Positions 29,111-45,838 of a stretch of 64,000 bases of DNA are shown here, piece after piece. The stretch's first letter is position 1. Every line of letters begins with the position of its first letter. Source of the DNA: Allocoleopsis franciscana PCC 7113 (GTDB taxonomy: Bacteria > Cyanobacteriota > Cyanobacteriia > Cyanobacteriales > Coleofasciculaceae). Where the stretch lies: contig NC_019738.1 of NCBI RefSeq assembly GCF_000317515.1, positions 7,218,001 through 7,282,000 on the forward strand, read 5' to 3'. The notes beneath the pieces are model-generated. The model was given only the letters and a program-made list of their open reading frames with translations. It did not search any database and was not told where the DNA came from. Position numbers and translations under genes: made by a program.

Positions 29111-29986
29111 ATGGACATGGAACATACCCTAGGGCTTTGGCTGGCTGTACCTAGGGCTTCTGTATACTCTGTAGTCATCACGCCGGATGGTCATACGCTA
29201 CTCAGCGGTGGTGCAGATAAGACGATTTTAGTGTGGGACGTACACACGGCTCAACAACAGTACACCCTGAGAGGACATTCGGATTGGGTTTATTGTGTCG
29301 CCATCACGCCTGATAGCAAAACTATTGTCAGTGGCAGTTCGGACAAGACGATTAAACTCTGGAATCTTAAGAGTGCAAAAGAAATACAAACTCTTGAGGG
29401 ACATTTAGATACAGTCTGTTCTGTTGCCATAACACCCGATGGAAGAACAATAGTGAGTGGCAGCAGAGACACCACAATCAAAGTGTGGGATTTAAGCACT
29501 GGGCAAGAAATTCGCACTCTTACCCCTCACTCAGATTGGGTTTATTCGGTTGCGTTGACGCCTGATGGGCAAACAATCGTGAGTGCTTGTGCTGACGCAA
29601 CGATTCAGGTCGGTGATATTGGCAAACTTACGGGTCATACTGCCGGTGTCACATCTGTTGCAATAAGCCCCGATGGGCGATTGATTGTTAGTGGTAGCAT
29701 CGACGAAACGATTAAAATCTGGGACTTTGCTACAGGTCAACAACTACACACATTCACGGCTCATGCTGATGGTGTAACCTGTGTTGTCATAACACCCGAT
29801 GGTCAGAAAATAGTGAGTGGTGGGAATGATAAAACGGTCAAGGTGTGGGATTTAAAGACAGGCAAAAAAATTCATACTTTTACTGATTATGTCGAAGCCG
29901 TTTTATCGGTTGGGATGACACCAGATGGACGAATGATTGTCAGTGGTAGCCGTAATAGCGTGATTAAGTGGTGGGAAATGCCTTGA
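29111..29986 (+). CDS. Stand-alone WD40 protein (seven-blade propeller)
   Basis: This 291-residue protein is made almost entirely of seven WD40 repeats, enough for one closed beta-propeller. Repeats carry the TPDGxTIVSGSxDKTIKxWDL pattern. Blade 4 is shorter than the others: ATIQVGDIGKLTGH lacks about 8 residues of the usual strand and has Gly where the Trp should be. There is no signal peptide or membrane helix, and unpaired Cys residues occur in several blades, which fits a cytoplasmic protein. It lies just upstream of three kinases that end in similar propellers and may be a scaffold or a kinase paralogue that lost its kinase half. Confidence 0.88.
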   Translation: MDMEHTLGLWLAVPRASVYSVVITPDGHTLLSGGADKTILVWDVHTAQQQYTLRGHSDWVYCVAITPDSKTIVSGSSDKTIKLWNLKSAKEIQTLEGHLDTVCSVAITPDGRTIVSGSRDTTIKVWDLSTGQEIRTLTPHSDWVYSVALTPDGQTIVSACADATIQVGDIGKLTGHTAGVTSVAISPDGRLIVSGSIDETIKIWDFATGQQLHTFTAHADGVTCVVITPDGQKIVSGGNDKTVKVWDLKTGKKIHTFTDYVEAVLSVGMTPDGRMIVSGSRNSVIKWWEMP

Positions 29987-30159
29987 TACTTCTACAGCAA
30001 TCAAGCGTGTGAGATTTTTGTAGAGTGCGATCGCCTCAGCCATTAGCATCAAGCAAAATCTATAAAAATAGGCCAAACCTTGGCAATTGGAAAACTCACT
30101 TGCCAAATTAGTGTAGGTAAGGGATTTACTGCCCACCCCACTACCACAACATCAACGCC

Positions 30160-32562
30160 ATGCTGGGAATCACACTAAGTGGTCGCTACACAATCGTCAA
30201 ACACCTTGGAGGTGGAGGTTTCGGTCAAACGTACCTTGCCGAGGACTTGCAGTTACCTGGCAACCCAATATGTGTCGTCAAGCAACTCCAACCTAGATCT
30301 ACCAATCCGCTGGCGTTAAAGATAGCAAAACGTTTATTCGATAGAGAAGCCCAAGTTTTGTACAAGTTGGGTAACCATGACCAGATTCCCAGACTTTTGG
30401 CTCACTTTGAACAGAAGCAAGAGTTTTATCTTGTTCAGGAATTCATTGAAGGTCACGATCTTAAGCAAGAACTACAACTAGGTAAGCGGTTAAGCGAAAC
30501 CCAAGTCATTGCCATCTGCCAAGAACTTTTAAACATCTTAGAGTTTGTTCATCAACAAGATGTAATCCACCGCGATATCAAACCCGCTAACATCATCAGG
30601 CGCAAGCATGATGGCAAACTGGTTTTGATTGACTTTGGAGCCGTTAAAGAGGTCACGAATCACAGTGTTAACTCTGAAGGGCATAGCAGTTTAACCGTGG
30701 CAATTGGTTCACCAGGTTACATGCCGAATGAGCAACTCCGAGGCAAACCCCAATTTTGTAGTGATATCTATGCAGTGGGAATGCTGGGTATCCAAGGGCT
30801 TACAGGAGTCCTGCCGAGCCAGTTGCCAGAAGACCCCAAGACGTTGGAAATTATTTGGCGTGATCAGTGGCACCCCAATAAACTGCCTCAACAGGTACAA
30901 ACCAACTCTGAGTTAGCAGACGTGTTAGATCAAATGGTGCGCTACGACTACCGCCAGCGCTATCAAACCGCAACAGATGCATTACAGGCATTTCAAGGAC
31001 TAACCAATGCTTACTCATCCTCAACAACCGCTGCTGCCTCTGAATATCCCCTTCCCGAAGCGGCTGACCCGTTTGAATCCACTGTAACGTACCCTCGACC
31101 CGCGCAAGTGCCCGGTTCACCGTTGAACAGCACAATGGAAGCGGCTGACCCGTTTGAATCAACTGTAACGTACCCTCGACCCGCGCAAGTGCCCAGTTCA
31201 CCGTTGAATAGCACGATCGAGGCCGATGAACCCACACAAGCGCCACCTTCCCAGCAACTGCCAACTCCAGATGTCTCGGCAACTTTATTGGAGACACAGG
31301 TTAGTAACGAAACGACTGAGCCTTTGGTTTCTCAGTCCCGGAAGAAATCTTCTAGGTTGATGGCGATGGGGGCAGGTATTGTCACAGCTCTAGCTCTGGC
31401 AGTGGGAATTTCCCACGTTCAACAAAATAACGCAAAGACGCCGGAAAACGGGAACGTGGAGCAGAAGGTATCCCAAGTGGAGCCTGCAAAACAGAAGTCT
31501 CAAGGGTCTGAATCTCAAGCTGAATCAGCAAATTCACTAGCTCCATTAGAGAAGGGGTTGCAATCTGCTTCTGAAATATCTCCGCGTCCTCCCATTTCAG
31601 CGTCCCCGCCTGTCTTGCGTAACACATCTAATGCCTGGAATAACTCTGAAAAAATTGCTTTGGCTAACACCCTCATGGGTCATTCACAGAGGGTTAGTTC
31701 CATTGCTATTAGTTCAGATGGACAGTTGATAGCTAGTGGCAGCGAAGACAAAACGATCAAAGTATGGAACCTGGGTACAGGACAACTGCTGCGTACCCTC
31801 ACGGGACATTCAGAAGGCATTCGCTCCGCTGCTATCAGCCCGGATGGAAAGTGGCTAGCCAGTGGTGGTGATGACAAGACTATTAAGCTATGGAATCTGG
31901 ACACAGGAAAACTCCTGCGTACCCTCACAGGACATTCAGACATCGTTCAGTCTGTTACCATCAGTCCGGATGGAAAGTTGATAGCCAGTGGTAGTAATGA
32001 CAAGACCGTCAAGCTGTGGAATCTTGAGACTGGGCAGGAAATCCGCACGCTTACTGGTTTTTCATATTTTGTAGTATCGGTCGCTATCAGCCCCGATGGG
32101 CAGACCCTTGTCAGCGGTGCTGACAAAATCTACCTGTGGCATCTGCCCACTGGTAACCTGATTAGCACCATCTCTGACCCTTCAGGCAATGTTATTCCTT
32201 CCCTCGCCATGACGCCAGATGGTGAAACCCTTGTTAGTGGAAGCAATTGGGGTAAGTTTAGTCTGTGGAATCTGCGGAATCTTTTGAAGGGTTGTAAAGG
32301 GGTACAGCCGTGCCGCCCTACACAAATCGTCTCTGGATCTAATGGCGGCTGGGTTCAGTCCCTCGCCATCAGCCCCGATGGAAAAACTTTAGCGACGGGT
32401 AGCGATCGCGAAAATACAATCAAGTTGTGGAATGCATCCACAGGAGAACCAAGAATTACCATCTCGAACCGTTCAACTTCGGTTGAATCACTCGCGTTCA
32501 GTCCCGATGGTAAAACCCTTGTGACTAACGGTGAGGATGGAAAAATTGAGCTTTGGCGATAG
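30160..32562 (+). CDS. Ser/Thr protein kinase with C-terminal WD40 propeller (array member 1)
   Basis: This 800-residue membrane kinase has an N-terminal Hanks-type domain (about 1-280): glycine loop GGGGFG (17-22), ATP-anchoring Lys41, helix-C Glu63, catalytic HRDIKPAN with Asp139, and DFG Asp158. All key residues are present, so it should be active. A Pro/Ser/Thr linker holds a perfect-length 27-residue duplication (300-326 and 327-353). Arg/Lys residues then precede one transmembrane helix (about 400-418). Seven WD40 blades (about 505-800) follow and should lie outside the cytoplasm. Blades 5-6 are joined by an insert with Cys712 and Cys718. Signal and substrate are unknown. Confidence 0.93.
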   Translation: MLGITLSGRYTIVKHLGGGGFGQTYLAEDLQLPGNPICVVKQLQPRSTNPLALKIAKRLFDREAQVLYKLGNHDQIPRLLAHFEQKQEFYLVQEFIEGHDLKQELQLGKRLSETQVIAICQELLNILEFVHQQDVIHRDIKPANIIRRKHDGKLVLIDFGAVKEVTNHSVNSEGHSSLTVAIGSPGYMPNEQLRGKPQFCSDIYAVGMLGIQGLTGVLPSQLPEDPKTLEIIWRDQWHPNKLPQQVQTNSELADVLDQMVRYDYRQRYQTATDALQAFQGLTNAYSSSTTAAASEYPLPEAADPFESTVTYPRPAQVPGSPLNSTMEAADPFESTVTYPRPAQVPSSPLNSTIEADEPTQAPPSQQLPTPDVSATLLETQVSNETTEPLVSQSRKKSSRLMAMGAGIVTALALAVGISHVQQNNAKTPENGNVEQKVSQVEPAKQKSQGSESQAESANSLAPLEKGLQSASEISPRPPISASPPVLRNTSNAWNNSEKIALANTLMGHSQRVSSIAISSDGQLIASGSEDKTIKVWNLGTGQLLRTLTGHSEGIRSAAISPDGKWLASGGDDKTIKLWNLDTGKLLRTLTGHSDIVQSVTISPDGKLIASGSNDKTVKLWNLETGQEIRTLTGFSYFVVSVAISPDGQTLVSGADKIYLWHLPTGNLISTISDPSGNVIPSLAMTPDGETLVSGSNWGKFSLWNLRNLLKGCKGVQPCRPTQIVSGSNGGWVQSLAISPDGKTLATGSDRENTIKLWNASTGEPRITISNRSTSVESLAFSPDGKTLVTNGEDGKIELWR
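31057..31218 (+). repeat. 81-bp in-frame tandem duplication
   Basis: Units at 31057-31137 and 31138-31218 differ at only a few bases and encode the same 27-residue linker segment (EAADPFESTVTYPRPAQVP plus tail) twice in kinase 1. Kinase 2 has a single related ADPFEPTATYPR segment. Confidence 0.9.
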
Positions 32563-32606
32563 CGAAGCGAGAAGAGCGAAGCGCAGAACGCCTTAGGATA
32601 GGAAAT

Positions 32607-32624
32607 GCGATCGCGAAGCGCTGC
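32607..32624. repeat. HIP1-linked small dispersed repeat, copy 1
   Basis: The 18-mer GCGATCGCGAAGCGCTGC lies after kinase 1 and recurs exactly at 35875-35892, inside the coding part of kinase 3. It contains a HIP1 octamer. Confidence 0.7.
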
Positions 32625-32730
32625 TGCACAGTGCAGATCGCATTAAAGTACCTATCTTGGTGATCTGGTTGAGATACGTAGGCTGCAACAGTTAAAACTC
32701 CTTTCATCATTAGGGACAGCACATAATACC

Positions 32731-34851
32731 ATGTTGGGAAAAACTCTAAGTGGTCGCTACCATATTGTCCAACATCTCGGAGGCGGCGGTTTTGGTCAAA
32801 CTTACCTTGCCGAAGACTTACAGCTACCTAGCAACCCTTTATGCGTCGTCAAACAACTTAAGCCTAAGTCTACTGACTCATCGACGTTACAAACCGCAAA
32901 GCGTTTCTTCGATAGGGAAGCTGAAGTTCTGTACAAGTTGGGCAACCATGACCAGATTCCCCGACTTTTGGCTCACTTTGAGCAGGAGCAAGAATTTTAT
33001 CTGGTTCAGGAATGCATTGAAGGTCACGACCTCAAGCAAGAATTACCACGAGGTAAGCGCTTAACTGAAGCCCAGGTCATTGTCCTCTGTCAAGACATCT
33101 TGCAAATACTAGAGTTTGTCCATCAGCAACATGTGATTCACCGCGATATCAAACCCGCCAATATAATTAGGCGAAGGCAAGATGGAAAGCTTGTTCTGAT
33201 CGATTTTGGAGCCGTCAAAGAAGTCACGACTGGGGCCATTAACCCTTCAGGAAACACCAGTTTCAGCGTAGCAATTGGCTCACCGGGTTACATGCCCAAC
33301 GAGCAACTGGGCGGCAAACCCCAATTTTGTAGTGATATTTATGCTGTTGGGGTATTAGGTATCCAAGCTCTGACAGGGTTATCTTCCAGTCAGTTACCAC
33401 AAGACCTCAGGACGAGTGAAATTCTCTGGCGCGATAAGTGGCTGCACAACATGCCGCCCCAACAGGTACAAACCAGCCTTGAGCTGGCAGATGTTTTAGA
33501 TAAGATGGTGCGCTACGACTACCGCCAGCGCTACCAAACGGTGACAGAGGCACTGCAAGCATTTGAACAACTCACCATGGTTTACTGTGGCTCAACAACA
33601 GCCTCTATCTCTGAAGTTAGCTTCACCGAATCGGCTGACCCCTTTGAACCTACCGCAACTTACCCTCGGCTTCCTCTAGTTTCCGATATGCCGACGGATA
33701 CGATGGAATCCAAAGAACTGACACAAGCGCTACACTCCCAGCAACAGCCAACTTCAAAAACTTTGGGAAACTTATCAGACGGGCAAATTGCTGATGAAAC
33801 TATCACACCTTTGGTTTCGTCCCGTAAGAAATATCGTAAATTGATCGCGATTGGTGGAGGTATTGTTGCTTCCGTAAGTCTGGCCTTTGGTATCTACCAC
33901 GTTTATGGATATACCATGTCATTGGCAGAAAGTCAATGGGTACAAAGGATATCACTCTCAAAAACCCTTCCTGGAGATTCAAACTCTTTTAGTCCTGTGG
34001 CTATTAGCCCAGATGGCAAAACTCTTGCGAGTGGAAGTGAGGATGGAACCATCAAATTGTGGGATTTACAGACCGGGAAACTGAGAAATACACTGAAGAG
34101 ACCTCCATCATCCGATAAGCGTTCAAAAGCAGTTAGAGCGATCGCATTCAGCCCAGATGGTAAAAGTCTTGCTAGTGGGGGTGAGGACAACGGTATCAAG
34201 GTTTGGAATCTCGACACTAAAACATTACTCCACACTCTTTCCGAAAAATCGTATTGGATTAGCGCGTTAGCGATTAGCCCCGATAGTCAGACGCTTGTGG
34301 GTGGCAATGCCGACGGCTATATAACGATTGGGAATTTGAGAACTGGGGAACTCCAGAACTTTTTTGCTGGACATTCCATCATCGTTAACTCCCTCGCTAT
34401 CAGCCCAGATGGACAAACTGCCGTTAGCGGTAGCGATGATAATACCATCAAGGTCTGGGAAATTAAGACGGGGCAGTTAATTCACACGCTTACCCCCCCT
34501 GATTCTCGCCGCGTCTTCGCTGTTGCCATCAGTCCCGATGGAAAGACAATTGCCAGTGGCAGTGAGGATGGAGTCGTTAGGCTGTGGAATCTGGGCAGTG
34601 GAAAACTCATCCAAAGTTTGCCAGTTGGTTCAGCGTCGATTAATGTTGTCGCCTATAGAGTTGATGGACATACTCTCGTGAGTGGCAGTCGTGATGGAAC
34701 CATTCGGCTATGGGATGTCAGGACTCGAAAGGTGCTGCGGACTATGCCAGGGCATTCAGAACCGATTTATTCCCTTGCCTTGAGTCCGGATGAGCAGACA
34801 CTTGTGAGTAGCAGCAAGGATGAGACGATTAAAATTTGGCGAGTGCCATAG
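32731..34851 (+). CDS. Ser/Thr protein kinase with C-terminal WD40 propeller (array member 2)
   Basis: This 706-residue paralogue of the preceding kinase has the same order. The kinase domain carries GGGGFG (17-22), Lys41, Asp139 in HRDIKPAN and Asp158 in DFG. A linker follows, then RKKYRK and a transmembrane helix (about 371-391), and a seven-blade WD40 propeller (about 410-706). One blade has lost consensus residues (GGNADGYITIGNLRTGE), and the sixth is atypical (VAYRVDGHTLVSG). Unlike kinases 1 and 3, its propeller has no visible Cys pair. It starts 168 bp after kinase 1 and may be separately transcribed. The propeller is predicted outside the cytoplasm from the positive-inside rule. Confidence 0.93.
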   Translation: MLGKTLSGRYHIVQHLGGGGFGQTYLAEDLQLPSNPLCVVKQLKPKSTDSSTLQTAKRFFDREAEVLYKLGNHDQIPRLLAHFEQEQEFYLVQECIEGHDLKQELPRGKRLTEAQVIVLCQDILQILEFVHQQHVIHRDIKPANIIRRRQDGKLVLIDFGAVKEVTTGAINPSGNTSFSVAIGSPGYMPNEQLGGKPQFCSDIYAVGVLGIQALTGLSSSQLPQDLRTSEILWRDKWLHNMPPQQVQTSLELADVLDKMVRYDYRQRYQTVTEALQAFEQLTMVYCGSTTASISEVSFTESADPFEPTATYPRLPLVSDMPTDTMESKELTQALHSQQQPTSKTLGNLSDGQIADETITPLVSSRKKYRKLIAIGGGIVASVSLAFGIYHVYGYTMSLAESQWVQRISLSKTLPGDSNSFSPVAISPDGKTLASGSEDGTIKLWDLQTGKLRNTLKRPPSSDKRSKAVRAIAFSPDGKSLASGGEDNGIKVWNLDTKTLLHTLSEKSYWISALAISPDSQTLVGGNADGYITIGNLRTGELQNFFAGHSIIVNSLAISPDGQTAVSGSDDNTIKVWEIKTGQLIHTLTPPDSRRVFAVAISPDGKTIASGSEDGVVRLWNLGSGKLIQSLPVGSASINVVAYRVDGHTLVSGSRDGTIRLWDVRTRKVLRTMPGHSEPIYSLALSPDEQTLVSSSKDETIKIWRVP

Positions 34852-35135
34852 CCTAGATATTACTGGGAGAGGGGGATTTTGCAAGAAATCTATTTTTTAG
34901 GCGATCGCGCCAGCCTTTAAATTTCCTAACTGTCCAAGCTACACTAGCAAGTAGTTTTGATTACGAATCCGTAAGTCCCTGTAATCTACGACTGCAAAAA
35001 TATAAGGTGCATTTTACGTCAGTAAGTCAGTCAAATCGCTCCAATCTTTAGACTGCAAAAGTTAAAGCTCCTTTAATATTTCTTGATAAATACACATTTA
35101 GCTCGCTCCCTATAATCTGCCACTGCATCAAGGTC
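34852..35135. other. Intergenic region between kinases 2 and 3
   Basis: This is 284 bp of AT-rich DNA with a GGCGATCGCGCC HIP1 palindrome near 34902. I see no gene. Two segments resemble each other loosely (ACTGCAAAA near 34990 and 35051), perhaps remnants of duplication. Confidence 0.4.
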
Positions 35136-37241
35136 ATGCAAGGAAACACTCTTAATAGCCAGGGCGCAAACGCCATCATCGGGAAAATTCTTTGCGATCG
35201 CTTCCAAATTATCCAACACTTGGGAGGCGGGGGGTTTGGTCAGACTTACCTTGCCGAAGACTTACAGCAACCAAGTAACTCGCCGTGTGTTGTTAAGCAA
35301 CTCCAGCCCAAGTCTAAAAATCCAGATACCTTGCAAACTGCAAGAGTTTTGTTCGAGAGGGAAGCCAAAGTTCTTTACCAGTTGGGCGACCATCCTCAAA
35401 TTCCTGATATTAGAGCGGATTTTGAGCAGGATGAACAGTTTTATTTGGTTCAGGAATTCATTGATGGCGGTGAACTCAAGCAGGAACTCCCTGCTGGCAA
35501 GCGGTTGAGTGAAACCCAGGTTATCGCCCTGTTGCAGGAAATTTTACAAATCTTAGAGTTTGTCCACGACAAGGGTGTTATTCATCGAGATATCAAGCCC
35601 TCGAATTTAATCCGGCGCAAACAGGACGGTAAAATTGTCCTGATTGACTTTGGGGCGGTCAAACAAGTCAGCACTCAGATTGTTCATCCTGAAGGACAGA
35701 CAACGTTAACAGTAGCAATTGGTTCGCCCGGTTTCATGCCGAACGAACAACTCAGCGGTAAACCTCGATTTTGTAGTGATATCTATGCTGTGGGGATGCT
35801 GGGGATTCAGGCGCTTACAGGAATACCAGCCAATCAGCTACCCGAAGACCCCAGAACCAGTGAAATTATATGGCGCGATCGCGAAGCGCTGCCAGTGGAC
35901 GTTGACGTAGAGGTGAGTCAGCCGTTGGCGGATGTATTAGATAAAATGGTGCGCTACGACTATCGCCAACGCTTCCAAACGGCAACAGAAGCCCTTCAAG
36001 CGATTGCCTCACTGAAGAATCCGTCAAACTATGGCGATACGTCTGGCACCTACACCTTAACCAACCCTCCCGCCTCAACTGCATACGGTGTTACGGCAAC
36101 ACTACCACCTCAACCCTTATCCTCTAAGCCGTTAGTCACTTCAGCACCTGTTCAAAACGAGGTACAAGCAGGTAACGCGCCTATAAGTACCCTTGATAAG
36201 AAATCCTATTGGCTCAAGGGCATTGGTGCAGGACTTGTGGCAGCTACAGCATTGACTGTGGGATTTTACAAATTGCCCAATGTCAAATTTGTGAACACTA
36301 ATCAGTTATCCGCAAGTGGACACAAGACTTCACCCGTGAACACTCTCATCGGGCATTCCAACGAAGTCTACTCCGTTGCCATCAGTCGAGACGGGCAAAT
36401 TCTGGTCAGTGGAAGTGTTGACAAAAAAATCAAGTTGTGGAGTATGCCCGATGGAAAACCCCTGAAAACCTTGCCCGCACATCAGGATAAGGTAATGTCG
36501 GTTGCCATCAGCCCCGATGGACGGATAATAGCCAGTGGTAGTAAAGATGGGTCGATTAAACTCTGGAATTTGAAAACGGGACAACTTCTGCGTCCCCTGT
36601 CTGGACATTCTGACTACGTGTTGTCGGTTGCCTTTAGTCCTGATGGGCAGACTATTGCGAGTAGTAGTGCGGACAAGACTGTTAAGCTTTGGGATGTACG
36701 CACGGGGAAACAGGTGCGATCGCTTTCTGGACATTCCAACTGGGTTTATGCTGTGGCATTTAGTCCGGATGGAAAAACCCTTGCCGATGCTAGCGATGAT
36801 AAAACCATCAAGTTGTGGCATTTGCCCACAGGTAAGCTCATTACTACTCTATCTAGCCCTTCAGGTCAGGTTGTGCGTTCCGTTGCCTTCAGTCCAGATG
36901 GCAAAACTCTGGTCAGTGGGAGTTATGACCAAATTAATTTGTGGAACTTGGAGAATCTGTTAACGGGTTGTAAGGATGCATCGTCATGCAGTCCGATGAA
37001 GACGTTCTCCGGTAAATTAGGCATTGTTGACTCGATCGCGATTAGTCCTGATAGCCAGACTCTCGCCTGTGGGACTAAGGATAAGAGCATCAAGCTTTGG
37101 AATCTCCAGACAGGAAAACTGCAAAATACTATCTCCGGACTTTCTGACCCAATTCATACTCTCACATTCAGTCCTGATGGGAAAACCCTGGTGAGTGGGG
37201 GTAGCGAGGATGGGACAATTGAGGTTTGGCGATCGCGCTAG
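35136..37241 (+). CDS. Ser/Thr protein kinase with C-terminal WD40 propeller (array member 3)
   Basis: This 701-residue paralogue has a 13-residue longer N-terminus. Kinase residues are Lys54 (VVKQL), Asp152 (HRDIKPSN) and Asp171 (DFG), all intact. The segment after EIIWRD differs from the paralogues (REALPVDVDVEV) because an 18-bp dispersed repeat lies in the coding sequence there. A transmembrane helix lies at about 359-379 (WLKGIGAGLVAATALTVGF), then seven WD40 blades to the end. As in kinase 1, the blade 5-6 insert has a Cys pair (Cys612, Cys618). The propeller is inferred to be extracytoplasmic. Confidence 0.93.
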   Translation: MQGNTLNSQGANAIIGKILCDRFQIIQHLGGGGFGQTYLAEDLQQPSNSPCVVKQLQPKSKNPDTLQTARVLFEREAKVLYQLGDHPQIPDIRADFEQDEQFYLVQEFIDGGELKQELPAGKRLSETQVIALLQEILQILEFVHDKGVIHRDIKPSNLIRRKQDGKIVLIDFGAVKQVSTQIVHPEGQTTLTVAIGSPGFMPNEQLSGKPRFCSDIYAVGMLGIQALTGIPANQLPEDPRTSEIIWRDREALPVDVDVEVSQPLADVLDKMVRYDYRQRFQTATEALQAIASLKNPSNYGDTSGTYTLTNPPASTAYGVTATLPPQPLSSKPLVTSAPVQNEVQAGNAPISTLDKKSYWLKGIGAGLVAATALTVGFYKLPNVKFVNTNQLSASGHKTSPVNTLIGHSNEVYSVAISRDGQILVSGSVDKKIKLWSMPDGKPLKTLPAHQDKVMSVAISPDGRIIASGSKDGSIKLWNLKTGQLLRPLSGHSDYVLSVAFSPDGQTIASSSADKTVKLWDVRTGKQVRSLSGHSNWVYAVAFSPDGKTLADASDDKTIKLWHLPTGKLITTLSSPSGQVVRSVAFSPDGKTLVSGSYDQINLWNLENLLTGCKDASSCSPMKTFSGKLGIVDSIAISPDSQTLACGTKDKSIKLWNLQTGKLQNTISGLSDPIHTLTFSPDGKTLVSGGSEDGTIEVWRSR
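35875..35892 (+). repeat. HIP1-linked small dispersed repeat, copy 2 (inside kinase 3)
   Basis: This exact 18-bp match to 32607-32624 lies within the kinase 3 reading frame and encodes part of the divergent RDREALP segment. It appears to have been inserted or copied without breaking the frame. Confidence 0.7.
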
Positions 37242-37261
37242 GGTGGAAATGCGATCGCATT

Positions 37262-37438
37262 AAATTGGGTTCATTAATAATTAAAGAAAGGTTAGAAATA
37301 AGCGATCGGGAAACAGTAGAACAAATAAAGGAAAACCCTGACCTACAATACTTTCTCTTGTCAAACACACCCTCTGCAACGAAGCGCCGTATGAGGCCTC
37401 ACTCTTAGTGAGATTCAGAGAAAGAATAAATGCCAATT
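37262..37438 (+). pseudogene. Remnant of an IS5/IS1182-like transposase gene
   Basis: This fragment reads LGSLIIKERLEISDRETVEQ and continues to LQYF, then loses frame. Further on, homology resumes at the bases that encode APYEASLLVRFRERINANL in a second frame. It corresponds to the N-terminal third of the transposase at 37565 but differs at many bases, so it is an older, broken relative. It begins abruptly after the kinase 3 flank and ends at the left terminus of the intact IS. Confidence 0.8.
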
Positions 37439-37564
37439 TAGTTAGGGTTTGCTGTAAAAACCGGAAACCCTTAGCTATAAATAGTTTGAGCGGTCTTGAA
37501 AGTTGTTCAGCTCCCAGGAAATCTGGTAGAATCCCACAAAATCCTTGTACCAAGAGCAGGGAAA

Positions 37565-38050
37565 ATGTACAGAAAAGCTTCCTCAAGCCCGACCCCACCG
37601 GAAAACTTTGAGCTGCCCTTTGAGGGAAAGTTATCACAAGATAACCGTTGGGTAATCATGGCAAATCTGATACCCTGGGATGAATTTGAAGAGGAATACG
37701 CCAAAATTTTTTCTATTGATATGGGGGCACCTGCGCTGCCATTTCGGATGGCATTGGGTTCATTAATAATCAAAGAAAGATTAGGAATAAGCGATCGGGA
37801 AACAGTAGAACAAATAAAAGAAAACCCTTACTTACAATACTTTATAGGGAGAAAGCATTACAGCAACGAAGCCCCTTATGATGCCTCACTTTTGGTAAGA
37901 TTTAGAGAAAGGATAAATGTTGATTTAGTAAATCAAATAAATCAAAGAATGGTAAAGAAGATTCAGGAAGAAACAGAGGAGGAATCTAAAAAAAAAGCTC
38001 ACTCTCAGAAAGGCAAGAAACAAGAGAAAGCCCGAATCAAGGGAAATTAA
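37565..38050 (+). CDS. IS transposase, N-terminal frame (orfA)
   Basis: This 161-residue frame starts at the ATG at 37565 (MYRKASSSPTPPENFELPFE), the family N-terminus, then NRWVIMANLIPWDEFEEEY and MALGSLIIKERLGISDRETV, the helix-turn-helix-like DNA-binding part. It runs over an A9 tract at 37988-37996 and stops at 38050. The catalytic part lies in the -1 frame. A -1 slip on the A run gives a 480-residue transposase of normal length with the expected junction PNQGKLILDATCAPGD. Confidence 0.85.
   Translation: MYRKASSSPTPPENFELPFEGKLSQDNRWVIMANLIPWDEFEEEYAKIFSIDMGAPALPFRMALGSLIIKERLGISDRETVEQIKENPYLQYFIGRKHYSNEAPYDASLLVRFRERINVDLVNQINQRMVKKIQEETEEESKKKAHSQKGKKQEKARIKGN
37988..37996 (+). promoter_or_regulatory. 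A9 slippery run at the transposase frame junction
   Basis: Nine A followed by G lies where the two transposase frames overlap. A -1 shift here joins orfA to the frame that begins reading AGC at 37996. The same run is at 39664-39672 in the duplicate. It could be a programmed -1 (or transcriptional) slippage site, or a fixed frameshift mutation. Confidence 0.6.
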
Positions 38051-39006
38051 TTCTGGATGCTACCTGTGCGCCAGGAGATATCAGCTATCCCAATGACTTG
38101 GGTCTATTAAATCAAGCCAGAGTCAAAACGGAAAAGATAATAGATACTCTCTATAAGCCCCTAAAAGGGAGACTAAAGAAAAAGCCAAAAACTTATAGAA
38201 ACCTCGCTCGGAAAGATTACTTGAAAGTCGCCAAAAAACGGAGATCGTCAAGAAAAGAGAGAAGAAAAGCTATAAAAAAACAACTGAAATATATAAAAAG
38301 AAATTTATCACACATTGACCAGCTCCTTCAGACAGGAGAAGCACTTGAGGGTTTGAGCATCTCTCAATATAAGAGCTTGCTGGTGGTGACGGAAGTTTAC
38401 CGTCAACAGCAATGGATGTATGAGAATAAAGCCCAGAGAATTGACGACAGAATAGTCAGTTTAAGTCAGCCCCATATCCGTCCAATTGTGAGAGGAAAAG
38501 CCGGAAAACCTGTAGAATTTGGAGCTAAACTAGCAGCAAGCGTCAGAGATGGATATGTCTTTTTAGACCGTATAAGCTGGGATAACTTTAATGAAGCCGG
38601 AGACTTAAAAGCCCAAATAGAAGCATTTAAACAGCACACAGGAGTCTATCCCGAATCAGTACATGTAGATAGAATTTATCGAAATCGCGAGAATCGAGCA
38701 TTCTGTAAAGAAAGAGGGATTAGAATAAGTGGCCCCCCCTTAGGCAGACCTCCAGCTAATGTCAGCTCAGACAAAAAGAAACAAGCCTTAGACGACGAGA
38801 AGGTTCGCAATGCTATTGAAGGAAAATTTGGCATCTCAAAGCGAAGATTTAGCTTGAATCGCGTCATGGCTAAACTGCCTCATACTTCTCAAACGGCTAT
38901 TGCTATCACTTTTTTAGTCATGAATCTTTCCACCCTGCTACGGCAGTTTTTTTGTCTTTTTTTGTGCAATACACAACATCACGCCTTTTTTCTCGATAAC
39001 TATTAA
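37996..39006 (+). CDS. IS transposase, C-terminal catalytic frame (orfB)
   Basis: This is the open -1 frame from the slip site to the stop at 39006, about 336 residues. It lacks its own good start codon; a TTG at 38098 is possible but lies inside a conserved region. DDE residues are Asp in LILDATCAPGD, Asp in VHVDRIYRNREN and Glu in IEGKFGISKRRF, as in IS5/IS1182-type transposases. It is rich in Lys/Arg in the middle. Production as a fusion with orfA is inferred. Confidence 0.8.
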   Translation, partial: SSLSERQETRESPNQGKLILDATCAPGDISYPNDLGLLNQARVKTEKIIDTLYKPLKGRLKKKPKTYRNLARKDYLKVAKKRRSSRKERRKAIKKQLKYIKRNLSHIDQLLQTGEALEGLSISQYKSLLVVTEVYRQQQWMYENKAQRIDDRIVSLSQPHIRPIVRGKAGKPVEFGAKLAASVRDGYVFLDRISWDNFNEAGDLKAQIEAFKQHTGVYPESVHVDRIYRNRENRAFCKERGIRISGPPLGRPPANVSSDKKKQALDDEKVRNAIEGKFGISKRRFSLNRVMAKLPHTSQTAIAITFLVMNLSTLLRQFFCLFLCNTQHHAFFLDNY

Positions 39007-39157
39007 TTCGGCTTATGCTTGTGGGAATTAACAACAACAAAAGCTCATTATTATTCCAGGATTAAATAACTGATTAATCCATCGGTTGTTTTTCGCCGAC
39101 TTATTCAGCAAGCCCTACCTAGACTTCTTTAGTCAGATCTTGTCTTGCACCTCATCA

Positions 39158-39281
39158 CCCGCAGACTGGAAGTCTGGGGCTATACAAACGAAGCCTGCCT
39201 CCGCAGGCTCTAAAACCCTTACTTCTACGTAGTCCGCGTAGGCGGACTTAGTTTGTGTAGCCGCAGGTTTCAACCTGTCGG
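39158..39281. repeat. Dispersed palindromic element, copy 1
   Basis: A block of nested palindromes: outer arms around GGCTATACAAAC and GTTTGTGTAGCC, inner hairpins AGCCTGC/GCAGGCT (about 39192-39209) and AGTCCGC/GCGGACT (about 39231-39248). This type of hairpin-rich interspersed repeat is common in filamentous cyanobacteria. It is duplicated at 40834-40957 as part of the tandem unit. Confidence 0.65.
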
Positions 39282-39333
39282 CAACTGGTGCAAGACTCTC
39301 CATAAACTGTTGCTCACAAACCGTTGGGTAATC

Positions 39334-40682
39334 ATGGCAAATCTGATACCCTGGGATGAATTTGAAGAGGAATACGCCAAAATTTTTTCTATTGATATGG
39401 GGGCACCTGCGCTGCCATTTCGGATGGCATTGGGTTCATTAATAATCAAAGAAAGATTAGGAATAAGCGATCGGGAAACAGTAGAACAAATAAAAGAAAA
39501 CCCTTACTTACAATACTTTATAGGGAGAAAGCATTACAGCAACGAAGCCCCTTATGATGCCTCACTTTTGGTAAGATTTAGAGAAAGGATAAATGTTGAT
39601 TTAGTAAATCAAATAAATCAAAGAATGGTAAAGAAGATTCAGGAAGAAACAGAGGAGGAATCTAAAAAAAAAGCTCACTCTCAGAAAGGCAAGAAACAAG
39701 AGAAAGCCCGAATCAAGGGAAATTAATTCTGGATGCTACCTGTGCGCCAGGAGATATCAGCTATCCCAATGACTTGGGTCTATTAAATCAAGCCAGAGTC
39801 AAAACGGAAAAGATAATAGATACTCTCTATAAGCCCCTAAAAGGGAGACTAAAGAAAAAGCCAAAAACTTATAGAAACCTCGCTCGGAAAGATTACTTGA
39901 AAGTCGCCAAAAAACGGAGATCGTCAAGAAAAGAGAGAAGAAAAGCTATAAAAAAACAACTGAAATATATAAAAAGAAATTTATCACACATTGACCAGCT
40001 CCTTCAGACAGGAGAAGCACTTGAGGGTTTGAGCATCTCTCAATATAAGAGCTTGCTGGTGGTGGCGGAAGTTTACCGTCAACAGCAATGGATGTATGAG
40101 AATAAAGCCCAGAGAATTGACGACAGAATAGTCAGTTTAAGTCAGCCCCATATCCGTCCAATTGTGAGAGGAAAAGCCGGAAAACCTGTAGAATTTGGAG
40201 CTAAACTAGCAGCAAGCGTCAGAGATGGATATGTCTTTTTAGACCGTATAAGCTGGGATAACTTTAATGAAGCCGGAGACTTAAAAGCCCAAATAGAAGC
40301 ATTTAAACAGCACACAGGAGTCTATCCCGAATCAGTACATGTAGATAGAATTTATCGAAATCGCGAGAATCGAGCATTCTGTAAAGAAAGAGGGATTAGA
40401 ATAAGTGGCCCCCCCTTAGGCAGACCTCCAGCTAATGTCAGCTCAGACAAAAAGAAACAAGCCTTAGACGACGAGAAGGTTCGCAATGCTATTGAAGGAA
40501 AATTTGGCATCTCAAAGCGAAGATTTAGCTTGAATCGCGTCATGGCTAAACTGCCTCATACTTCTCAAACGGCTATTGCTATCACTTTTTTAGTCATGAA
40601 TCTTTCCACCCTGCTACGGCAGTTTTTTTGTCTTTTTTTGTGCAATACACAACATCACGCCTTTTTTCTCGATAACTATTAA
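39334..40682 (+). pseudogene. 5'-truncated duplicate of the IS transposase
   Basis: This copy begins at the duplication junction and so lacks the first 26 codons (the ENFELPFEGKL part). The first sensible Met is at 39334 (MANLIPWDEFEEEYAK). The same A9 run splits it into an N-terminal frame ending at 39726 and a C-terminal frame ending at 40682. Apart from one Thr-to-Ala change it equals copy 1. With no left inverted repeat it should not move by itself. A frame starting at 39253 only arises by reading flank DNA into the junction. Confidence 0.85.
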
Positions 40683-41364: not shown

Positions 41365-42549
41365 ATGTCTCATCGCCCCATTTACCTCGACTGCCACGCC
41401 ACCACGCCCCTCGATGAACGGGTATTAGAGGCGATGTTGCCCTACTTCAAAGAACATTTTGGCAATCCCGCCAGCAGCAGTCATGTTTACGGCTGGGAGG
41501 CGGAAGCCGCCGTTCAACGTGCACGATCTATTTTGGCAGATGCTATTCACGCCACGCCGGAAGAAATTGTCTTTACCAGTGGTGCCACAGAGGCGAATAA
41601 TTTAGCGATTAAGGGTGTCGCTGAAGCCTATTTCAGCAAAGGGCGTCACATTATTACGGTTCAAACTGAGCATAACGCCGTTCTTGACCCCTGTCAGTAC
41701 CTCCAATCTTTGGGGTTTGAGGTGACGTTTCTGCCTGTGCAGCGAGATGGATTAATTGATTTGGCAGATTTAGAAAAGGCGATTCGTCCCGATACGATTT
41801 TAGTGTCGGTGATGGCAGCGAATAATGAGATTGGAGTATTACAGCCGTTGGCAGAAATCGGGACAATTTGCCGACAGCATCAAGTGCTTTTTCATACGGA
41901 TGCGGCTCAAGCAATTGGGAAAATAGCTTTAGATGTCGAGGAGATGAAAATTGACTTAATGTCCCTAACCGCCCATAAGGTTTATGGCCCAAAGGGAATT
42001 GGGGCATTATATGTCAGACGCCGTAAGCCTAGAGTTCGGTTATCCCCCCAAATTCATGGCGGTGGACACGAACGGGGAATGCGCTCTGGTACGCTATGTA
42101 CGCCTCAAATTGCGGGGTTGGCTAAGGCGGTGGAATTAGGGATGGAAGAACGGGAAACAGAGTCAAGACGCCTGATTCAGTTACGCGATCGCTTATGGCA
42201 ACCATTGAGTCAACTGGAGGGAATTCATCTCAACGGTCATCCGACTCAGCGACTATCAGGAAATCTTAACATTAGTATAGAAGACGTTGATGGTTCAGCG
42301 CTGCTCTTGGGATTGCAGTCTGTGGTAGCGGTTTCTTCAGGTGCGGCTTGTTCCTCCGTCAAAACAGCTCCCTCTCATGTTCTATTAGCTCTGGGGCACT
42401 CGGAACAACTGGCTTATGCCTCGGTACGATTTGGGATCGGGCGCTGTAATACAGCCGAGGAAATGGATTGTATCGCTCAACACGCAATCGCCACGATTCA
42501 GTCTCTGCGACAATCACAAGCTGCCAGTTTTCGGAAAACGGTAAAATGA
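41365..42549 (+). CDS. Cysteine desulfurase (NifS/IscS class V aminotransferase)
   Basis: This PLP enzyme removes sulfur from cysteine for iron-sulfur clusters and other thio-cofactors. The 394-residue protein starts with IYLDCHATTPLDERVLEAML, then FTSGATEANNLAIKG. PLP Lys lies in SLTAHKVYGPKGIGALYVRR, and the catalytic Cys loop is SSGAACSSVKTAPSHVL. These are group I (NifS/IscS) features. Which cluster system it serves is not shown by its neighbours. It is followed by the long rne leader region. Confidence 0.95.
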   Translation: MSHRPIYLDCHATTPLDERVLEAMLPYFKEHFGNPASSSHVYGWEAEAAVQRARSILADAIHATPEEIVFTSGATEANNLAIKGVAEAYFSKGRHIITVQTEHNAVLDPCQYLQSLGFEVTFLPVQRDGLIDLADLEKAIRPDTILVSVMAANNEIGVLQPLAEIGTICRQHQVLFHTDAAQAIGKIALDVEEMKIDLMSLTAHKVYGPKGIGALYVRRRKPRVRLSPQIHGGGHERGMRSGTLCTPQIAGLAKAVELGMEERETESRRLIQLRDRLWQPLSQLEGIHLNGHPTQRLSGNLNISIEDVDGSALLLGLQSVVAVSSGAACSSVKTAPSHVLLALGHSEQLAYASVRFGIGRCNTAEEMDCIAQHAIATIQSLRQSQAASFRKTVK

Positions 42550-42682
42550 AGTAAAGTATTGGTTAAGGGTCAAGCCAAATGTCGCCAGCGTGAGGCGAAG
42601 GGCGGCAATATTAGGAAGGGCGCGAATATATCGAGAGCGCGGCTACTCACTCAAATGTAGTGGCATCTGAGGAACAGCGCGG

Positions 42683-42688
42683 TATAAT
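42683..42688 (+). promoter_or_regulatory. Candidate -10 box for rne
   Basis: A perfect TATAAT lies in the rne upstream region. The matching -35 (TGGCAT, 16-nt spacing) is weak, so this is only a candidate. Confidence 0.4.
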
Positions 42689-42699
42689 ACACCATCATA

Positions 42700-42733
42700 G
42701 GAACAGTTGCTGATCAGGAATAGTTGCTGATCA
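42700..42733 (+). repeat. 17-bp tandem repeat in the rne leader
   Basis: GGAACAGTTGCTGATCA and GGAATAGTTGCTGATCA follow one another, then AAGTTCC, which can pair with the first GGAAC. The location just after the candidate -10 suggests a leader RNA structure. Confidence 0.75.
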
Positions 42734-43063
42734 AAGTTCCAGAGGTCTTCACCCCTGTAAACTAGCAGTAGATACTGAATGCAACTGGTTCGCTCTTCCA
42801 GTTTTTCTGCTCACGCCTTTAAAATTCCAAGGTTTGCCCTTTGTGGAAGGGTAGGTTATTGGATAATCACTCGATTAGGAAAATTTGACCAACAGGAGTG
42901 TCAGTTATATTCAGTCACTCTTGGGTTCAAAAGCTCTATTTTTTCTAGATGAAGCTAGAGATTTCGCATACACAGTTATTGACACAGTTATCTTGGGTAG
43001 CCGAAGCAAGAGGGACAGAAAGCCTCAGTACCTAAGCTTGCTGCCAATTTTTGAGGAAATTGA

Positions 43064-45118
43064 ATGCCAAAGCAAATTATTATTGCAGAGCAACACCGTC
43101 TTGCTGCTGTCTTTTGGGAAGATCAAATTCAAGAACTCGTGGTGGCAACCGGTAACCACCAAGTGAGTGATATTTACCTCGGTGTTGTAGAAAATGTCTT
43201 ACCGGGGATAGATGCGGCTTTTGTAAACATTGGTGACCCAGAGCGAAATGGCTTTATTCATGTCACCGATTTAGGGCCTTTGCGTCTGAAACGCAGTGCG
43301 GGGGCGATTACCGAACTGCTGACTCCCCAACAAAAAGTCTTAGTTCAAGTGATGAAGGAGCCGACGGGCAATAAAGGCCCCCGGCTGACTGGCAATATCA
43401 GCTTACCCGGTCGTTATTTGGTACTGATGCCTTATGGACGGGGTGTCAATTTGTCCCGGCGGATTAAGAACGATAACGAACGCAACCGCCTGAGAGCGCT
43501 TGCCGTCTTGATTAAACCCGCCGGCATGGGACTGTTGGTGCGTACCGAAGCCGAGGGGAGAGCAGAAGAGGCAATTATCGAGGATTTGGAAGTTCTGCAA
43601 AAACAGTGGGAATCCATCCAGCAAGAAGCTAATTCCACGAGGGCACCCGCCTTACTGAACCGTGATGATGATTTTATTCAACGCGTCCTGCGGGATATGT
43701 ATACGGCGGATGTGAATCGAATCGTGGTCGATTCCCATACAGGAGTCAAGCGAGTTAAGCAGCACTTGCTGACTTGGAGTGGAGGTCGATCACCGGAAGG
43801 GGTTTTAATTGACCATCATCGCGATCGCATTTCGATTCTGGATTACTTCCGGGTGAATGCGGCGATTCGAGAAGCACTCAAACCCAGAGTTGATTTGCCT
43901 TCAGGGGGTTACATTATCATCGAACCGACGGAAGCCCTGACGGTGATTGATGTTAACTCAGGTTCCTTCACGCGATCGGCAACGGCACGAGAAACCGTAC
44001 TCTGGACAAACTGTGAAGCTGCCACAGAAATTGCTCGCCAATTGCGCCTGCGTAACCTAGCGGGCGTGATTATCGTTGACTTTATTGACATGGACTCCAG
44101 GCGAGACCAGTTGCAGGTATTAGAACACTTCAACAAAGCTCTGAGATCAGACAAAGCTAGACCGCAGATTGCCCAACTTTCGGAACTCGGCTTAGTCGAA
44201 CTCACCCGCAAGCGTCAGGGTCAAAATATTTACGAGTTATTTAGTCAAACTTGTTCTGTCTGTGGAGGTTTAGGGCATTCAGTTCGGCTTCCCGGTGAGG
44301 CAGAACGCGAACGCCCAGCCAAGGAATTTGTTGAGCCAGCTGTTCCGGCTATACTCCGGGAACCTCGGACACCCGAAATTCCTGAACCCCTCGATCTCTC
44401 TCCGGTCGATGACGCCGAGGACGTAGACTTGGTGCATCATCCCAGCTATCAAGAACGGGGACTACCCAATAATCCCAATAACCGCCGTCGCCGCCGTCGT
44501 CGTCTCGATGAACCCGTAGCCAAGGAGGAATCACTGACCAAGGTAAGCGTAAGCCCTCGCCCAACGCCTATCCTCTCCGGGAAATCAGAAGCAGCGCCAG
44601 AAAGTGAGCTTTTAGAACTAGGGGAACGCACTGTAAAACCGCAGCTCATCAAAGCCCCTAAAGAGATAGACCCACCCGAAGTCGTAGCTATCGAGATGTC
44701 CCCAGAGGAACAAGATGTTTATGCTTTGATGGGAATTTCTCCACTGGTGCGGTTGAATAGAGAAGTCCGAAACCCTAAATCAGTGATTCTTTCAGTGGTA
44801 CTGCCTGGAGAAGCCGATCAAACCGAAGAGGACAACGAGGAATTTGCCGAATCGTCTTCTGCGCCATCCAGCTTTGCCGTAACGTCCGATTCAGCGCCAC
44901 ACTCAGCGCCTGTGATTCGATCCTCTGCGGCGGCTTCCACTTATGAGGACGTAGAGACATCAGAGCCATTGCGGGTAACGTCATCGGCTGAGACATCTGA
45001 GTTAGAAGTGCCATCTGACTCGACCGATATGGGTGAATCAGACAGCAACCGTCCTTTGATCCGCCGCCGTCGCCGTCGTTCTTCGGCTACCGATGGTGAG
45101 GATTCGACGGCTAGTTAA
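43064..45118 (+). CDS. rne: Ribonuclease E (RNase E/G family)
   Basis: RNase E is the main endonuclease for mRNA decay and rRNA/sRNA processing. The 684-residue protein has an S1 domain (about 35-120, with GVVENVLPGIDAAFVNIG) and the 5'-sensor/RNase H region. The DNase-I-like catalytic part has Asp in LTVIDVNSGS and in IIVDFIDMDS. A zinc-link CSVCGG near residue 400 completes the core. The C-terminal 270 residues are disordered and acidic with an Arg run (NNRRRRRRRLDE). The tail has RRRRRRSSA, the nonapeptide known in cyanobacteria to bind PNPase. rnhB follows. Confidence 0.95.
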   Translation: MPKQIIIAEQHRLAAVFWEDQIQELVVATGNHQVSDIYLGVVENVLPGIDAAFVNIGDPERNGFIHVTDLGPLRLKRSAGAITELLTPQQKVLVQVMKEPTGNKGPRLTGNISLPGRYLVLMPYGRGVNLSRRIKNDNERNRLRALAVLIKPAGMGLLVRTEAEGRAEEAIIEDLEVLQKQWESIQQEANSTRAPALLNRDDDFIQRVLRDMYTADVNRIVVDSHTGVKRVKQHLLTWSGGRSPEGVLIDHHRDRISILDYFRVNAAIREALKPRVDLPSGGYIIIEPTEALTVIDVNSGSFTRSATARETVLWTNCEAATEIARQLRLRNLAGVIIVDFIDMDSRRDQLQVLEHFNKALRSDKARPQIAQLSELGLVELTRKRQGQNIYELFSQTCSVCGGLGHSVRLPGEAERERPAKEFVEPAVPAILREPRTPEIPEPLDLSPVDDAEDVDLVHHPSYQERGLPNNPNNRRRRRRRLDEPVAKEESLTKVSVSPRPTPILSGKSEAAPESELLELGERTVKPQLIKAPKEIDPPEVVAIEMSPEEQDVYALMGISPLVRLNREVRNPKSVILSVVLPGEADQTEEDNEEFAESSSAPSSFAVTSDSAPHSAPVIRSSAAASTYEDVETSEPLRVTSSAETSELEVPSDSTDMGESDSNRPLIRRRRRRSSATDGEDSTAS

Positions 45119-45175
45119 ACGGACATCGTGCCTCGCAGGGGTAAGCTTGATTTGAGAAGAAAGGGAGCGGAAAGG

Positions 45176-45838
45176 ATGCCGATAGACACAACCGGACTCG
45201 TTCTGCCCCCGAAGTCTCAGGGGCAATCCAATTTTTGTGAGTTACCTGATTTATCGGGTAATCCAAGATTAGTTGCTGGTGTAGATGAGGTGGGACGGGG
45301 TGCTTTATTTGGCCCAGTGGTGGCGGCGGCGGTCATTTTACCCGTCTCGGTTCTGCCGCAACTTGCTCTGGCTGGTGTCAAAGACAGCAAACAGTTGTCC
45401 CCTCTTCGACGATTAAAGCTGGCGAAGGAAGTTCAACGGTTAGCCTTAGATTGGAGAATTGGCTATGCCACGTCGCAAGAAATTGACCAAATTAATATCT
45501 TGCAAGCTTCCTTGCTAGCGATGAAACGGGCGATTCTAAAGCTGAAAGTACAGCCCGATATTTGTCTAATTGATGGTAACCACGGTCTTCCCAACTTGCC
45601 TTTGCCACAACAAACAATGGTGAAGGGCGATCAGCGATCGCTGGAAATCGCCGCTGCTAGTGTTGTGGCTAAGGTTTGGCGCGATGAACTCGTGATTCGT
45701 TTAGCTGTCAAGTATCCAGATTATGATTTGGTCACCAATAAAGGTTATGGAACACTGCGACATCGATTAGCGCTGCAACAATACGGCCCTTCACCCCTAC
45801 ACCGTATGTCCTTCCGTCCCTGCCAAGTCGGGTTTTAA
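45176..45838 (+). CDS. rnhB: Ribonuclease HII
   Basis: RNase HII cuts the RNA strand of RNA-DNA hybrids and removes ribonucleotides from DNA. From the ATG at 45176 it has 220 residues. A GTG at 45128, 10 bp after the rne stop, would add 16 residues (MPRRGKLDLRRKGAER) and cannot be excluded. Motifs: LVAGVDEVGRGALFGPVVAA with the catalytic Asp/Glu pair, GVKDSKQLSPLRR, CLIDGNHGLPNL, and KGDQRSLEIAAASVVAKVWR. The rne-rnhB pair is conserved in cyanobacteria and probably cotranscribed. Confidence 0.95.
   Translation: MPIDTTGLVLPPKSQGQSNFCELPDLSGNPRLVAGVDEVGRGALFGPVVAAAVILPVSVLPQLALAGVKDSKQLSPLRRLKLAKEVQRLALDWRIGYATSQEIDQINILQASLLAMKRAILKLKVQPDICLIDGNHGLPNLPLPQQTMVKGDQRSLEIAAASVVAKVWRDELVIRLAVKYPDYDLVTNKGYGTLRHRLALQQYGPSPLHRMSFRPCQVGF

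Follow-up and report, generated by a model that had tools for sequence, protein, structure and literature searches.

The window, a stretch of 64,000 nucleotides from Allocoleopsis franciscana PCC 7113, contains four adjacent plus-strand genes with common WD40 propeller repeats (W0, K1, K2 and K3), followed by insertion sequences and by a conserved right flank:

29111..29986, + strand: W0, a stand-alone seven-blade WD40 protein of 291 aa (ORF list, Pfam, blade HMM)
30160..32562, + strand: K1, 800 aa; kinase aa 10-277, helix aa 400-418, propeller aa 509-800, Cys 712/718
32731..34851, + strand: K2, 706 aa; kinase aa 10-277, helix aa 371-389, propeller aa 423-706, 0 head Cys
35136..37241, + strand: K3, 701 aa; kinase aa 23-289, weak helix about aa 358-380, propeller aa 406-701, Cys 612/618 and 645
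37242..40682, + strand: two near-identical IS copies (DUF772 + DDE_Tnp_1_2), preceded by a degenerate transposase fragment
41365..45838, + strand: conserved flank on the right of the array, with genes for a nifS/iscS-type cysteine desulfurase, RNase G/E and RNase HII, named by reading the sequence and not by family search

ORF positions and Pfam WD40 matches confirm the four neighbouring genes with shared repeats that a preliminary description of this DNA had reported. WD40 is matched in W0, K1, K2 and K3 at E 3e-78, 4e-67, 1.5e-67 and 6e-79, respectively, far above chance, and an HMM trained on blades from the window itself counts 7 in each. Gaps of 168-284 bp separate the four genes, compatible with one operon as well as with separate promoters. 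K1, K2 and K3 also match Pkinase (E 7e-39, 6e-38 and 4e-37), and no Pkinase appears for W0 among the best 25 of 60 Pfam matches. The catalytic motifs (ATP-site Lys, helix-C Glu, HRD Asp, the next Asn and DFG) are invariant in K1-K3 and five relatives. From these conserved residues K1-K3 are predicted to be active Hanks-type kinases, in line with the three intact kinases described earlier. In each protein a kinase is followed by a basic segment, one hydrophobic helix and a seven-blade propeller; the single hydrophobic segment found in each linker and the blade HMM both agree with the architecture first proposed. The K1 linker contains an internal direct repeat (window 31054-31215, about aa 299-352), and about 60 additional residues lie C-terminal to the K1 helix; both are absent from K2 and K3. 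Directly after K3 lies the degenerate transposase fragment; the two IS copies form a tandem, and in each of them DUF772 and DDE_Tnp_1_2 are encoded by separate ORFs.

The linker was compared across 74 cyanobacterial kinase-WD40 proteins, picked by similarity in relatives and in the phylum and thus not a random sample. They derive from 282 records, which yielded 94 ORFs with kinase and propeller and 74 after removal of 20 at >=80% identity; the filters applied (>=5 blades, kinase span >200 aa, <1000 aa, 3' end not cut) removed further ORFs. The best linker helix score on a dG scale is two-peaked, with 36 proteins at <=1.52 kcal/mol and the next at 2.84, 3.80 and up. K1, K2 and K3 score 1.08, 1.19 and 1.16 kcal/mol, which places them in the low-score (helix) group, at its weak end. 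K3 is on par with the others on this scale and weak on that of Kyte-Doolittle (1.39), with a Lys close to the start of its segment. Each of K1-K3 thus carries one helix between kinase and propeller, marginal by hydropathy in K3. The AlphaFold2 model of K3 (mean pLDDT 78.5) displays the kinase and propeller folds and no helix at the linker segment, where pLDDT falls below 50, and that of K2 places a helix at 366-406 with low confidence; AlphaFold2 was dropped as an arbiter of the helix.

W0 has no signal peptide-like start, as the preliminary description had noted for this propeller-only gene, and no segment comparable to the K1-K3 helix. Its four scattered Cys, together with the missing export signal, make W0 best read as a neighbour that probably resides in the cytoplasm. 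At E <= 1e-90 its orthologues, 56-87% identical, occur in 8/20 genomes, its own included (7/19 others). The orthologue adjoins folK in four of these (G012, G020, G008, G009) and CAAD in a fifth (G004), and no relatives of K1-K3 lie near it in the stretch read in any of the five. Membership of W0 in the array is therefore not supported: it reads as an old gene in its own right, with a separate history, that adjoins the array. Its derivation from a kinase that lost its first half was rejected because the orthologues in other genera are free-standing.

The searches recovered full-length relatives of K1-K3 from the sister species of the same genus (G001), from G010 (UBA8803), G028 and G055, and from Trichocoleus sp. 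FACHB-40, whose gene a shares 97-99% identity with the G028 gene. In G001 the genes W0, K1', K2' and K3' are followed by a kinase that carries an FGE-sulfatase domain and then by three genes read from the sequence as nifS-type cysteine desulfurase, RNase G/E and RNase HII. The IS region at 37242-40682 occupies the place of this kinase with its FGE-sulfatase (sulfatase-modifying-factor) domain. Trichocoleus and G055 contain two relatives of K1-K3 between a cupin gene and the desulfurase gene, and UBA8803 contains one, followed by a lipoprotein-like ORF, an FGE-like gene and the desulfurase. A kinase-WD40 gene also lies in the stretch before the desulfurase in G002, G013 and G025, its kinase being nearest to the G001 FGE kinase. 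In G012 (L321, 4406-6265) the slot gene is split by one in-frame stop into kinase-only and WD40-only frames. In G005, and likewise in G019, a single ORF separates folK from the desulfurase.

The three kinase halves of K1-K3 are alike and the heads strongly diverged. K2 and K3 have one-to-one orthologues in G001, with identities of 94% and 96% over the kinase and 90% and 94% over the head. The dS of these pairs is 0.14-0.27 and dN/dS is 0.10-0.27 over kinase and head; both halves of K2 and K3 are under purifying selection between the two species. Slot 1 differs: K1 and G001-K1 share 81% identity over the kinase and 40% over the head, and kinase dS reaches 0.86. The K1 kinase is nearest the K2 type (dN 0.10 to G001-K1, 0.12 to K2, 0.21 to K3), and the K1 head shows dN of 0.36 to K3, 0.51 to K2 and 0.57 to G001-K1; by tree path its nearest head is that of G055 b. 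The identity profile of K1 shifts between the helix and the first blade. Six heads, those of K1 (712/718), K3 (612/618), G001 K3, UBA8803, Trichocoleus sp. FACHB-40 b and G055 b, carry a CX5C pair in one loop insertion, a spacing absent from every other helix-class head among the 94 ORFs. K3 has a third Cys (645) beyond the pair; among the other helix-class heads three have one Cys and two have Cys pairs of different spacing. Because nearly no other Cys is present in the CX5C heads, the pair likely forms a disulfide.

K1 is read as an old mosaic, in which a K2-type kinase half would be joined to a head that resembles K3 and the heads of other genera more closely, with a later loss or replacement in slot 1. 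A larger ancient array in which both halves of K1 are old, with unequal rates or model error behind the conflict between trees, would require no mosaic. It is compatible with a kinase tree that is mostly unresolved and with the slot-1 kinase dS, which at 0.86 exceeds the 0.14-0.27 of the K2 and K3 pairs and demands loss of different paralogues in any case. Against it, the grouping obtained with one half of the protein is rejected by AU tests on the other: the heads reject K1 with G001-K1 (p 0.0002) and a place for K1 in the K2 group (0.0004), and the kinases reject K1 with the CX5C-head group (0.001) and allow K1 with G001-K1 (0.47). In addition, the order of dN is reversed between the halves (K1-K2 0.12 and K1-K3 0.21 in the kinase, 0.51 and 0.36 in the head), and the CX5C loop is present in every head of K1's head group, which has tree support of 90/93 (not starred). 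An array without a mosaic is consequently considered unlikely.

Two further readings were rejected. Orthology of K1 to the slot-1 gene of G001, followed by a recent exchange of the head, fails because kinase dS (0.86) lies far above that of the K2, K3 and W0 pairs (0.14-0.40); the 108 bp upstream of the start align well between the two slot-1 genes. Kinase homogenisation in every array was set aside because many between-genus pairs are likewise higher in kinase than in head. Fourfold-site identity for kinase/head, at 0.59/0.29 for K1-K2, 0.59/0.36 in Trichocoleus and 0.55/0.37 in G055, would by itself suggest homogenisation, which is not claimed since many between-genus pairs show the same direction. 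A literature search on conversion between tandem sensor kinases returned nothing relevant, supplements being outside its scope. Like kinases with unlike heads agree with the parallel channels suggested at first for these tandem paralogues, while a receptor set evolving by duplication proved too simple a description: separate kinase and propeller phylogenies disagree for K1 and slot 1 is non-orthologous in the sister species, so duplication alone does not suffice. In the best explanation the array would change both through duplication and through halves being exchanged close to the membrane segment.

The side of the membrane faced by the heads was assessed from Cys content and charge. The propellers of the 36 helix proteins have a mean of 0.50 Cys and are Cys-free in 26/36, against 2.66 Cys and 2/38 Cys-free in the 38 helix-less proteins (Mann-Whitney 1.9e-9 over 74 proteins, relatives treated as independent); one of the two Cys-free "helix-less" proteins, L239, does have a helix and owes its label to a misparse in the domain calls. 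Splitting by hydropathy at a cut of 1.3 (35 vs 39 proteins) gives 0.60 vs 2.51 propeller Cys (p 1.4e-7) and no difference in kinase-domain Cys (2.49 vs 2.28, p 0.61); raising the cut to 1.5 brings kinase Cys close to a difference as well, of opposite direction (p 0.054). Equal kinase-domain Cys indicate that the depletion sits in the head and not in the gene as a whole. Lys+Arg are more numerous in the 15 residues before the helix than in those after it in 26/36 proteins, equal in 7 and fewer in 3. On the kinase tree, with L239 set aside, the helix trait needs 7 changes, 4 of them forced. The supported independent pairs comprise about 3 with the trend between helix and Cys, 0 against and 1 neither, and with only 4 such pairs significance is out of reach; cruder first labels gave 2.6 with and 0.3 against, of 7.

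The heads of K1-K3 are very probably located outside the cytoplasm, as first suggested from the positive-inside rule. The placement is well supported by charge bias and, independently, by Cys depletion, evidence that is strong but indirect. Cyanobacteria possess two inner membrane systems, and the same topology in the thylakoid membrane would place the propellers in the lumen, there sensing its state. The lumen is topologically the same side, so Cys and charge statistics fit it equally; targeting evidence points neither way and the genes have no link to photosynthesis in this analysis, which leaves a thylakoid location rather improbable. Still less probable is a hydrophobic segment that is no full span (peripheral or hairpin), with propellers serving as cytoplasmic docking platforms as in the genome's other kinase-WD40 class: the weak scores of K1-K3 (1.08-1.19 kcal/mol) and the 5 kinase-WD40 proteins of this genome without such a helix speak for it, and the Cys depletion and charge bias of the helix class and the conserved CX5C pair speak against it.

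K1-K3 are thus probably single-pass receptor kinases, with a cytoplasmic Hanks-type kinase and a periplasmic or lumenal WD40 head, in which like kinases carry unlike heads. An active kinase in the cytoplasm would be connected through a disordered basic linker and one membrane helix to a seven-blade propeller in the periplasm (or thylakoid lumen). The head may bind a ligand or a partner protein; the receptors would then cluster or turn, which would allow the kinases to phosphorylate one another and, after that, common targets. With kinase halves so similar and heads so unlike, the three proteins would suit several inputs leading to one output. More tentatively, the array may diversify by swapping, near-constant kinase halves being joined at or near the membrane segment to two old periplasmic WD40 head types, one with a disulfide-bonded CX5C loop; the helix-less, cytoplasmic kinase-WD40 class could fill the same chromosomal slot in related genera.

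WD40 propellers are usually viewed as cytoplasmic docking rings, and a sequence rule that splits WD40 kinases into outside- and inside-facing classes shows where to seek the signal. Cyanobacterial genomes are rich in such kinases. The present genome (7.97 Mb, 9 contigs) has 74 Pkinase matches at E <= 0.001 and, among the loci read, at least 11 kinase-WD40 proteins, of which 6 have a linker helix and 5 lack one; one of the 11, L162, has one head Cys and lies outside the 74 rows of the survey. Two further clusters lie at G000:C1 4719.8-4724.2 kb (L024) and 4901.4-4907.7 kb (L144, L147), their genes all without linker helix and with Cys in the heads. In G042 the kinase-WD40 linker of L111 resembles an FHA domain, as judged by eye. 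Arrays of like kinases with unlike heads offer natural pairs for asking what each head senses.

Several known systems resemble K1-K3. The PASTA kinases PknB/Stk1 likewise have the kinase inside, one helix and a C-terminal outer sensor, which consists of PASTA repeats where K1-K3 carry a WD40 propeller; NF033483 matches the kinase and linker of K1-K3 below its cut-off (124-135 bits vs 450). PkwA of Thermomonospora curvata shares the N-terminal kinase and C-terminal seven-blade WD40, and its head (5YZV) is the best PDB match of the K3 model (TM 0.97 by target, 1.2 A, 42% identity). PkwA is actinobacterial, and in the portions drawn on here of the literature on prokaryotic WD40 and PkwA (PMC5587647, PMC6113231, PMC6805158) topology is undiscussed and array, CX5C and mosaic are not seen. 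Ser/Thr kinases with 6-7 WD40 repeats (cbSTKII), WD40(7) included, occur several per cyanobacterial genome and were reported in 2007 from nitrogen-fixing hosts (PMC2176072). K1-K3 have the features of this family (Pkinase E 4e-37 to 7e-39; 7 blades each), with no histidine kinase domain among the best 25 of 60 Pfam matches. The sections of that survey used here class the family by domain and do not place the propeller, whereas the present analysis separates helix and helix-less classes. In another phylum, Planctomycetota single-pass kinases have been predicted with a cytoplasmic kinase, one helix and a periplasmic WD40 (PMC11032199), the topology proposed here for K1-K3; it rests on DeepTMHMM there and on charge and Cys statistics here, and the sections consulted describe no head exchange. 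An outside WD40 head on a kinase is thus already published (Planctomycetota, PMC11032199), as are cyanobacterial kinase-WD40 proteins (PMC2176072); the additions made here are the Cys evidence for topology and the putative mosaic K1.
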